From Myxococcota bacterium (GTDB taxonomy: Bacteria; Myxococcota_A; Bradymonadia; UBA7976; UBA1532), in NCBI GenBank assembly GCA_963169045.1, contig CAUJDF010000044.1:62001-126000 (forward strand): a DNA stretch of 64,000 nt, written 5' to 3'. The translations under genes were made by a program, and so were the position numbers. Within the stretch, counting starts at the first letter, position 1. Each line of letters opens with the position of its first letter. Below are positions 18,508 through 32,166 of this stretch, piece by piece. Under the pieces are notes generated by a model. It saw only the letters and a program-made list of their open reading frames with translations, had not been told where the DNA came from and did no database searches.

Positions 18508-18545
18508 AAACGAAAAAGCCCCCGGCTCGTGAGAACCGGGGGCTT
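18508..18545 (-). terminator. Rho-independent terminator of tRNA-Leu
   Basis: A 10-bp perfect stem (18516-18525 with 18536-18545) closes a 10-nt loop. Read on the minus strand it is followed by TTTTTCGTTTTC, a good U-tract. It starts right at the tRNA 3' CCA. On the plus strand there is no U-tract, so it is not an efficient intrinsic terminator for the Hsp70 gene. Confidence 0.8.
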
Positions 18546-18631
18546 GGTGCGGAAGGGGGGAGTCGAACCCCCACGCCCGTGAAGGCACTGGAACCTGAAT
18601 CCAGCGCGTCTGCCAATTCCGCCACTTCCGC
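18545..18631 (-). tRNA. tRNA-Leu (anticodon CAG)
   Basis: The minus strand folds into a class II tRNA of 87 nt including an encoded CCA. The acceptor stem is GCGGAAG paired with CTTCCGC, the T-arm has GGTTCGACTCC, and a long variable arm is present, as expected for leucine. The anticodon loop TTCAGGT gives anticodon CAG (18595-18597), reading CUG, the leading leucine codon in GC-rich genomes. It has its own promoter (18647-18675) and terminator, so it is a monocistronic unit inserted between two plus-strand genes. Confidence 0.96.
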
Positions 18632-18690: not shown

Positions 18691-19056
18691 GTGAAACGCG
18701 TGCTGATCATCGAGGACGACCGGTTCAACCGCCGCCTCTATCGCGAGCTGCTCGAAGAGGAGGGGATCTCCGTGGAGCTCGCGGCGAGCGCCGACGAGGG
18801 CCTGCGGTCGGCTCAGGCGTCGCCGCCGGACCTCATCGTCATGGACATCGAGATGCCGGGCATGGACGGACTGACCGCGACGCGGCGCCTCAAGACCGAC
18901 GCGACGACCGCCGGCGTTCCGGTGGTGATCATCAGCGCGCACGCCCTGCACGAGCACGAGACGCGGGCGCTCGAGGTCGGGGGGGACTGCTTCTTGCGAA
19001 AGCCGCTGCGCTTTCCAGAGTTCCAGCAGACGATCCGGCGGCTGATCGCACGCTAG
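18691..19056 (+). CDS. Single-domain response regulator (CheY-like)
   Basis: This 121-residue stand-alone receiver has all conserved residues: acidic pair in IIEDD (residues 6-10), phospho-acceptor Asp in VMDIEMPGMDG (near residue 53), the Ser/Thr switch in VIISAH, and the lysine in LRKPL. There is no output domain, so it works by protein-protein contact or phosphotransfer. The start is GTG with AGGA about 12 nt upstream. No kinase gene is adjacent; the nearest is at 6527-7717. It is isolated between the tRNA-Leu promoter and a palindromic repeat that begins 2 bp after its stop. Confidence 0.93.
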   Translation: MKRVLIIEDDRFNRRLYRELLEEEGISVELAASADEGLRSAQASPPDLIVMDIEMPGMDGLTATRRLKTDATTAGVPVVIISAHALHEHETRALEVGGDCFLRKPLRFPEFQQTIRRLIAR

Positions 19057-19057
19057 C

Positions 19058-19205
19058 GGGGTGCCCCCGAAGTTCCGCACGCTTCGTCGCGGCCCTCGGC
19101 CCCCAGGTCTGCGTTGGACCTCCTCCGCGTAGGCCAAGGCGACGCGTTCGTCGGCCCGCCTTGCCCTGAGGGCCGATGGCTCGCGCCTCGGGCGCGCGAA
19201 CTTCG
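19058..19205. repeat. Quasi-palindromic intergenic repeat, copy 1
   Basis: This ~148-bp element fills the gap between two converging genes. It shares with copy 2 (32012-32160) a central core (19116-19163 versus 32061-32109; two substitutions and one 1-bp indel) and outer arms. Its left arm (19058-19090) is identical for 33 bp to the reverse complement of copy 2's right arm (32128-32160). Within the copy the arms pair imperfectly, for example GAAGTTC at 19069-19075 with GAACTTC at 19198-19204, and the core has an inner AAGGCG/CGCCTT stem. No ORF within it is credible. It could be a REP/MITE-like element or a shared bidirectional terminator. Confidence 0.85.
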
Positions 19206-19208
19206 CTG

Positions 19209-20996
19209 TCAGACCTTTAGCGAGCGGCGGCGACGCCGCCGCACGACCAGCGCCACCGCGCCGAGCAGCCAGCCGCCGCCCGCGCCGCCGACGGCGCTGC
19301 AGCCGCCGTCTTCGCCCTCGCGCCTCACGACGACGCCGCCGCCGCCCGCGTCCTGGCCGAGGCGACCGCCGCCGCCCGCGTCCTCGGACAACGGGAAGCC
19401 GAGGTCGGCGAGCGGCGAGCCCGCGTCCTCGCCGGGGCGATCGATCGCCGCGTCGCCACGGGGCGCGCCCGCGTCGCGCTCGGGAGTGACCATCGCGTCT
19501 CGTTCGGGCGCCGCGCCCGCGTCGGACGCGTCGGCCACGCAGGCGAGCTGGCTCACGCGCCCGATCCGGACCCGACCGCACCTCATCGCGGCGGGGCAGT
19601 CGCGATCGTCGCGGCAGACGTCGGTACACGCGCCGGACTCGAGGCAGTAACCGGCGCGGCAATCGCCGGCCCCCCGGCACGGCGCGCCGGCCACGCCGCC
19701 ATCGACCGGCGCGCAGATGCTGCGGGAGAGATCGCCGTCGACCACGAAAGTGCAGGTGAGGTCACCCGCGCAGTCGCTCGCGCGGCCGCAGGCTGTCTCC
19801 GCGACCGCGCAGATCGCGACGTCGCCGGGGAGGCCCGGAATGCGAGTGGGTTCGCAGGGATAGCTGCCGCAGTCGCCGTCGTCGTCGCAGGCGCGCGAGC
19901 AGCGGCCGCCGAGGCAGAGCGCGCCCTCGCATTGCTCGGGGTCGTCGCAGGGATCACCCACCGCACGCCCGCCCGTCGCCTCGATGCAGATTCGGAACGT
20001 GCGGTTCTCGACGGGATGGCGCGTCGGGACGCACACGTCGCCGGCGGCGCAGTCGCCGACGTCGTCCTCGCAGGTGCGCACGTTGACGCAGAGGCCGTAG
20101 CCCGGTCCGCCGTCGACGCCCGCCTGGGGCAGGCACGTCCAGTCGACGGGACAGTCGGCGTCGCCGCGGCACACGCTCGAGCACAGGTTGTCGTTGAGGC
20201 AGAGGCCGTTGCGGCAGCCGTTGTCGCACACGCCGGCCTCGACGTCGCAGCGCTGGCCGGCGCGGCCGCGGCCGAGCGTCGGACCGCAGCGCGGCTCGAC
20301 GGTGTCATCGCTGCTCGCGCCGAGGATGCAGACCTCGCCGCCGCCGCAGTCGGCGTCGCGCGCGCAGACGCCGCCGCGATTGGCGGGGTACATCGCGCAG
20401 ATGGCGTCGGTCTCGTCGCGGCTCAGCGTGCGGCGAACGCGCTCGATGATGCTCGGGAACATGACCGCATCTTCGAAGCGCGAGTGGTCGAGGCCCAGCA
20501 GATGCCCGATCTCGTGGAGGGCGACCGTCTCGATGTCGGCCCGGTCGCTGTCGTCGCGATCGGACCAATCGAAGGTCACGCCGTTGAAGGTGATGTCGGA
20601 CTCGGTGATCACGCCCGTGCAATAGACGCCGACGTGCGACGTGAAGGCGAGCGTCGTATCGGGATCGACCTCGCGCGGCAGCCGCCGCTCCTCGAAGCGG
20701 ATGACGTTGTGGCCATCCATGGCGGGCGTGTTGGCGTCGACGCCGTTCACCTCGGGCTCGAAGCGCAGGGTCGAGCAGGGGCGCTCCCACGTGGTGAAGG
20801 CGCGGTCGATGGCGGCGCGCACGCGGGCGATCGGGAGGCCCGAGTAACCGGCGGAGTGAACGTGGTAGCGCACGACGGCGCCCGACGTGAAGCGCAGCGG
20901 CGGGTCGCTCGCCGCGTCGCCGGCGCGGATCTGGACCCAGCCGGCGAGGGGGAGCACGCAGAGGAGGAGCAGGCCGCGGCGGATGCTGGGGGTCAT
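19209..20996 (-). CDS. Secreted matrixin-like zinc metalloprotease with MYXO-CTERM-like tail
   Basis: A protein of about 595 residues. It has a signal peptide (residues 1-27) and a matrixin/metzincin catalytic domain with the zinc site HEIGHLLGLDH (near residue 160) and a downstream Met-turn-like VMFPS. A long cysteine-rich region follows, with repeated CxxxxDCxxG-type units (about 210-470), then an Asp/Ala/Pro-rich linker and a C-terminal tail of GGCS, a hydrophobic helix and an RRRRRR run. That tail matches the MYXO-CTERM type, a sorting signal known from Myxococcota whose invariant cysteine precedes the membrane segment. Predicted to be surface-displayed or released. An in-frame ATG at 21017 is an alternative start; neither has a strong Shine-Dalgarno. 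Confidence 0.85.
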   Translation of the reverse strand: MTPSIRRGLLLLCVLPLAGWVQIRAGDAASDPPLRFTSGAVVRYHVHSAGYSGLPIARVRAAIDRAFTTWERPCSTLRFEPEVNGVDANTPAMDGHNVIRFEERRLPREVDPDTTLAFTSHVGVYCTGVITESDITFNGVTFDWSDRDDSDRADIETVALHEIGHLLGLDHSRFEDAVMFPSIIERVRRTLSRDETDAICAMYPANRGGVCARDADCGGGEVCILGASSDDTVEPRCGPTLGRGRAGQRCDVEAGVCDNGCRNGLCLNDNLCSSVCRGDADCPVDWTCLPQAGVDGGPGYGLCVNVRTCEDDVGDCAAGDVCVPTRHPVENRTFRICIEATGGRAVGDPCDDPEQCEGALCLGGRCSRACDDDGDCGSYPCEPTRIPGLPGDVAICAVAETACGRASDCAGDLTCTFVVDGDLSRSICAPVDGGVAGAPCRGAGDCRAGYCLESGACTDVCRDDRDCPAAMRCGRVRIGRVSQLACVADASDAGAAPERDAMVTPERDAGAPRGDAAIDRPGEDAGSPLADLGFPLSEDAGGGGRLGQDAGGGGVVVRREGEDGGCSAVGGAGGGWLLGAVALVVRRRRRRSLKV

Positions 20997-21063
20997 CGAG
21001 GGCGCACCGTAGACCATCGCGGGGCGACGTCTCAAGCGTCGGTGCGCTCCCCGCGCCCATTTG

Positions 21064-31986: not shown

Positions 31987-32011
31987 GCGCTGGAGGCGAG
32001 TGGGTCGGTCC

Positions 32012-32160
32012 CCAAGACTCGCTCGCGTCGTCGCGGCCCTCGGCTCCCCGGGCTGGGTGTGGAACCTCCTCCGCGAAGGACAAGGCGACGCGTTCGTCGG
32101 CCCGCCTTGGCCGGTGGGCCGATGGCCGCGACGAAGCGTGCGGAACTTCGGGGGCACCCC
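32012..32160. repeat. Quasi-palindromic intergenic repeat, copy 2
   Basis: Second copy of the element at 19058-19205, in the same orientation, again between converging genes (stops at 31986 and 32167). The left arm contains TCGTCGCGGCC (near 32030) and the right arm its complement GGCCGCGACGA (near 32130), so the copy can form a long imperfect hairpin. The central 49 bp (32061-32109) is nearly identical to copy 1. The left boundary is approximate because that arm is more diverged. Confidence 0.85.
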
Positions 32161-32166
32161 ACAAGA

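Follow-up and report, generated by a model that had tools for sequence, protein, structure and literature searches.

A strand-specific hairpin core shared across bacterial phyla by probable IS630-type miniature elements

What is the long palindromic repeat that separates two convergent genes in this Myxococcota genome, and is any part of it more than the remains of a transposon? The window (the whole 64,000-nucleotide stretch of DNA analysed) contains two copies. Copy 1 is located between a response-regulator gene (ORF 18691-19056, Pfam Response_reg, E = 1.3e-28) and a convergent matrixin gene (ORF 19209-21017, minus strand, Pfam Peptidase_M10, E = 1.8e-17). It is an imperfect palindrome of about 160 bp with CTAG-like flanks, terminal inverted repeats of about 20 bp, two complementary arms and a central hairpin of about 66 nt. 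Copy 2 (G000:C44:93999-94165 in the contig numbering of the window's genome) is 83% identical to copy 1 and, its mosaic right arm apart, is built in the same way.

19053-19220, no strand: copy 1 with both CTAG-like flanks (CTAG 19053-19056, TTAG 19217-19220); ends from intragenomic alignment
19054-19056, plus strand: TAG stop codon of the response-regulator gene (ORF 18691-19056), part of the CTAG flank
19057-19110, plus strand: left arm of copy 1, starting with the terminal inverted repeat (C/T)GGGGTGCCCCCGAAGTTC; terminal-repeat pattern search and alignments
19103-19171, minus strand: core hairpin of copy 1, AAGGCG-NNN-CGACGA-[hairpin]-GAGGAG-N'N'N'-CAACGC; covariance model R1 and structure counts
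19160-19216, plus strand: right arm of copy 1, terminating in the variant terminal repeat ...CTTCGCTGTCAGACC; alignment
19209-19211, minus strand: TGA stop codon of the matrixin gene (19209-21017, minus), inside the right arm of copy 1
31997-32165, no strand: copy 2 with flanks CGAG and CAAG, a mosaic whose right arm is inverted left-arm sequence of type A
32047-32117, minus strand: degenerate core hairpin of copy 2; match to covariance model R1, E = 0.0015

A tRNA-Leu(CAG) gene is found just upstream of the response regulator (18545-18631, minus strand).

Copies of the element in the window and its genome

Both copies are non-coding and share the same orientation, in agreement with the original prediction, and an element is present at both sites it named, with true limits (19053-19220 and 31997-32165) slightly wider than those it gave. 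The complementarity it had noticed between the start of copy 1 and the end of copy 2 was recovered as a 98% match of the first 45 bases with the reverse complement of 32116-32160 and is explained by the inverted left-arm sequence forming the right arm of copy 2. The central parts, described as nearly identical, are 88% identical over 110 bases, and the proposed self-complementarity is supported by folding of each strand, which beats shuffled sequences (z = -2.2 and -2.5). A whole-genome search returned 13 other full-length relatives at 86-99% identity besides copy 2, together with about ten shorter ones. Neither of the outcomes that would have refuted the prediction, a genome with two copies only or a translated protein, was encountered.

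Overall, the 9-Mb genome contains about 25 copies, 15 of them near full length and the others mostly deletion derivatives (BLAST and terminal-repeat pattern search), and the covariance model detects 17 cores. The short forms (42-75 bp) end at the microhomologies CCTCGG, CCGA and GTCGG and, to judge from these junctions, look like products of slippage deletion. Four core-less derivatives of about 66 bp (L019, L020, L021, L027) have a common junction at the CCTCGG microhomology, reflecting either repeated slippage or the spread of one derivative. The idea that transposition of core-less 66-bp forms proves the core dispensable was dropped because a junction at this microhomology could recur by slippage.

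Relation to IS630 and target sites

The element-end pattern also matched an intact 1.2-kb IS630 in Pseudomonas sp. 10-1B whose ORF encodes an IS630 transposase (NF033545, E = 4.7e-81). With the common terminal repeat set aside, arm A is similar to the right end of this insertion sequence (p = 0.0005 for the inner part) and arm B to its left end (p = 0.019); the reverse pairing was not seen. At the level of sequence, and for one Pseudomonas genome, this demonstrates that the arms correspond to the two ends of an IS630. The original prediction had proposed a check for a transposase with matching ends; the match is the Pseudomonas IS630, and none was found in the draft assemblies of the window's genome or of G004-G006. 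The window's genome yielded a single IS630 (L066/L067, G000:C51:15986), which was rejected as a partner, its ORF being flanked by repeats unrelated to the element. Autonomous copies in this genome were also rejected, as all terminal-repeat matches are either known full or deleted copies or weak three-mismatch matches at control level.

CTAG is the commonest flank, found at 37 of 67 elements on one side and 35 of 67 on the other. Identical flanks exceed the number in shuffles (29 v 20.7, p = 0.0014), also in the subset with CTAG on neither side (5 of 19 v 1.7, p = 0.017). Many flanks are nevertheless unequal, which leaves the length of the target duplication unsettled. According to the available text of PMC2170065, IS630 elements target TA and duplicate 2 bp on insertion, and the title of a paper cited there (Tenzen & Ohtsubo 1991) names a preference for TA in CTAG.

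The window's genus is represented by one genome. Genomes of a sister genus (G005, G006) carry elements that are about 70% identical over their full length, along with two more types of arm that also surround this core and have CTAG flanks. For two of these sister-genus arm types the insertion adds a net 162 bp, or 54 codons, and three G005 copies are in frame within long ORFs, with sense and frame constant. One of them forms an in-frame 54-codon insertion in a cas3 gene (L071, G005:C70, 1758-1927; Cas3_HD, E = 2.7e-33), where it is flanked by CTGG/CTGG and the inserted segment is missing from all five homologues compared. Insertion into a gene with the predicted reading frame kept is thus demonstrated in sequence; there are no data on Cas3 activity. 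An empty homologous site is established for this gene and not for the window copies. The same in-frame peptide is seen in two other long ORFs (L069, L076). A coding role of the element was rejected, since there is no conserved protein and the net length of the copies in the window's genome (164) breaks the frame.

The IS630 ends of the arms in one Pseudomonas genome and the cas3 insertion absent from five homologues place the family, as far as sequence evidence goes, in an IS630-type MITE superfamily. Where the original prediction offered a genome-wide REP, MITE or attenuator-like element not tied to either gene, MITE is the option that the evidence supports. REP in the RAYT sense is rejected because the window's genome is without a Y1/HUH transposase of the RAYT family (PF01797, 0 matches).

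Distribution, structure and strand asymmetry of the core

Beyond what the original prediction envisaged, the same hairpin core is present across phyla on elements with unrelated ends and has a strand-specific structure. We scanned GTDB with the core pattern GCGTTGNNNCTCCTCN{12,24}TCGTCGNNNCGCCT and matched at least 117 stretches, placed by their record titles in Pseudomonadota, Planctomycetota, Nitrospirota (Nitrospirae), Omnitrophota, Gemmatimonadota (Gemmatimonadetes), Acidobacteriota, Binatota (Binatia) and others, also including Eisenbacteria, Krumholzibacteriia, Thermoanaerobaculia and Myxococcales. Many of the sources are metagenome bins and several are isolates. Most matched elements are 158-169 bp palindromes with CTAG flanks, while the remaining ones are about 100-120 bp with unrelated ends, for example GGACTTACGCAAAA in Burkholderiales. 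One Binatota chromosome contains 41 cores. No match to the core pattern was found in IMG/VR, four subtype queries found none among plasmids, and one unannotated phage record matched; plasmid or viral carriage was rejected on these two negatives and the single phage record. No element was found in E. coli.

Among the Burkholderiales core elements of about 100 bp (L109, L129, L166, L180), three (L129, L166, L180) end in GGACTTACGCAAAA and two of these are flanked by TA, representing another transposon end family. Six betaproteobacterial elements (L122, L146, L148, L169, L196, L214) combine the core with a left-end hairpin CTCACC..GGTGAG and a right end like TCAACTGCCGAATCTAGG, lack matching terminal repeats and are possibly derivatives of ssDNA transposons.

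In the minus sense, the core consensus is GGC-AAG-GCG-NNN-CGACGA-[hairpin]-GAGGAG-N'N'N'-CAA-CGC-N-GCC. Much of its apparent invariance is caused by the search pattern, which leaves NNN, the outer helix and the hairpin free, and it is these free positions that covary strongly. NNN and N'N'N' pair in 188 cases against 121 ± 6, and the core covariation score is 0.374 against 0.121 ± 0.013 in shuffles, reached by 0 of 500. The covariation supports a paired structure. In copies found by the model and not by the pattern, the fixed positions vary, mostly in lower-scoring copies. Covariance model R1 matches copy 1 at E = 2.5e-12 (G000:C44:81103-81171, minus); the 46 training rows of the model, mostly from other phyla, include copy 1. 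Copy 2 was absent from the training set and is still matched at E = 0.0015. A common class, CTC/TCG, has NNN = CGA opposite GAG, giving a third tandem G.A step instead of Watson-Crick pairs, and the tandem steps of this class can be read as G.A on the minus strand only. The window element is without a match in Rfam 15, be it at the gathering score or even at E <= 5, and ten loci of other lineages are without one too; a known structured RNA was rejected on these grounds.

The arms outside the core also carry a strand signal. Their mismatches are G.U on the minus strand in 215 cases and on the plus strand in 78 (p = 6e-16; G.U against A.C by strand), the minus bias counted by genome is 39 v 8, and inner and outer arm parts are alike in this respect. 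Elements outside class I, the class whose arms match IS630 ends, show the same bias (91 v 22). The minus strand also folds better in 59 of 59 elements, by a mean of -17.5 kcal/mol. The core contributes to this energy difference, a less independent measure than the G.U count. As a double-stranded signal predicts a 1:1 ratio, the asymmetry reflects selection on a folded single strand of one sense. This selection on a minus-sense structure, in RNA or less likely in ssDNA, holds for many phyla and for different transposon ends; what the structure does is unproven. The bias has all but vanished from copies of the window's genome (22 v 25; -2.3 kcal/mol), and these copies therefore look like relaxed, ageing members.

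Possible roles of the core and comparison with known repeats

On balance, we lean towards copy 1 being an old IS630-type MITE whose apex hairpin has been selected as a one-sense single strand and acts as RNA, an action that is inferred without expression data. The MITE features themselves are directly demonstrated and comprise a repeated palindrome of about 160 bp, terminal repeats, CTAG-like flanks, a cross-phylum family and an in-frame insertion absent from homologues. Movement is inferred to occur in trans, with an IS630 transposase cutting the element out and pasting it in at the TA of CTAG, a target that TAG stop codons would often supply. A minus-sense transcript of the element would form a long rod, its apex made up of an AAG loop, a CAA bulge and tandem G.A steps, two or three in number. 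Recognition of the apex by a widely conserved host factor is a guess, as is the likeliest outcome, in which a read-through transcript would be protected or processed and insertions would become tolerable. Minus-sense read-through RNA would predict an orientation bias relative to genes. In the broad cross-phylum set, orientation is unbiased in tandem contexts (23 v 23), weakening the read-through version and leaving ssDNA open; the corresponding figure for the Binatota chromosome is 13 v 5. Evidence and doubt are evenly poised for the wider proposal that the core represents a new class of single-strand structure (RNA or ssDNA), recognized by a conserved bacterial factor and crossing phyla on unrelated transposon ends, with arms swapped and core fixed.

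MITEs are usually seen as transposon ends with meaningless filler between them, whereas in this family it is the filler that is retained and the ends that vary. The persistence of this filler as a strand-specific structure in very distantly related bacteria implies that many phyla share a cellular partner for it. The covariance model could help to annotate a large group of repeats that still lack an explanation, and the small hairpin is directly testable in Pseudomonas.

An unlikely alternative, though one with some support, is that the minus-strand hairpin acts as ssDNA, exposed for example on the lagging strand, and serves as an enzyme substrate or signal as in IS200/IS605, REPIN and integron attC systems, with no RNA role. 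A strand-specific structure without consistent orientation to genes fits, and some core elements (Paucibacter, Pelomonas, Sideroxyarcus) have the left-end hairpin CTCACC..GGTGAG and no matching terminal repeats. However, class I arms match the ends of IS630, a double-strand cut-and-paste system, the window's genome has no Y1 transposase, and G.T pairs stabilize ssDNA hairpins less than G.U pairs stabilize RNA.

Improbable to a greater degree is an ordinary MITE whose palindrome is just a pair of IS ends with filler between them and whose core is passed on without serving a function. In favor of this reading, MITEs of the IS630 type exist, IS ends make up the arms in one genome and the strand signal is nearly lost in the window's genome. 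Yet neutral filler would neither retain covarying pairs while the arms become unalignable nor give a phylum-wide G.U strand asymmetry, and the G.U asymmetry, covariation and minus-strand folding largely refute this explanation.

All 25 copies classified by context in the window's genome are at gene 3' ends (16 convergent, 9 tandem, 0 divergent), with a convergent excess over the 44 gene gaps of the window (6 convergent, 31 tandem, 7 divergent; Fisher p = 3e-5; gene calls by a simple codon-usage script). This excess and the strong folding of both strands would suit a REP/BIME-like 3'-end element kept by the host as a bidirectional terminator or mRNA stabilizer, but we find this very hard to sustain, as insertion into CTAG at TAG stops would account for much of the preference, the broad set lacks it (7 convergent, 14 divergent), some G005 copies are in frame inside genes and no T-run is seen in the element. 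A terminator at 3' ends as a general role is unsupported outside the window's genome.

The favored reading, a MITE with a selected one-sense hairpin, can be set against known repeats. IS630/Tc1-mariner-derived MITEs include RUP of pneumococcus and Nezha of cyanobacteria. Like these, the present element is 100-200 bp long, has terminal repeats, an apparent TA/CTAG target and ends in common with an IS630 (in one genome), and contains no gene; unlike them, it has a cross-phylum core of about 66 nt, common to elements with unrelated ends, and a strand-specific structure. Rickettsia palindromic elements, which differ in sequence, size and target, likewise have some copies in frame inside protein genes, but in-frame copies are a minority in the present family. 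REP/REPIN sequences (RAYTs; CGTC-tagged REPs), as covered in the accessible text of PMC3733652, are also palindromic, abundant, often 3' of genes and sometimes within them; in contrast, the present element has terminal inverted repeats, CTAG flanks and IS630 ends and, at 160 bp, exceeds their 20-40 bp. ERIC, NEMIS and other transcribed MITEs have transcripts that can fold into long hairpins (accessible text of PMC3733652, and general knowledge); they are confined to few lineages and are without such a core, whereas the present core is cross-phylum. The R6 repeat of Pseudomonas fluorescens Pf0-1 (177 bp, 34-bp inverted repeats, 50 intergenic copies) is described in the available portion of its report only as a repeat of one strain, with no core, mobilizer or cross-phylum link mentioned there (Silby et al. 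2009, PMC2718517). It possibly belongs to the same superfamily; the sequences were not compared. The open-access literature, as far as its available text goes, yielded MITE and REP reviews and Pf0-1 R6 and no description of the shared core, which is not proof of novelty.

Variants of the core were also observed. In a Binatota subfamily (L306-L325), CGACAACGA/GAGGCGGAG replaces CGACGACGA/GAGGAGGAG, a change from G.A to A.C in which the non-canonical step is altered on both its sides. Hairpins at four loci (L298, L300, L237, L264:657-723) have the outer motif AAGGCG..CAACGC with a different inner module, GACGCAG..CAAGTC in L298 and L300, and a second core type may exist.
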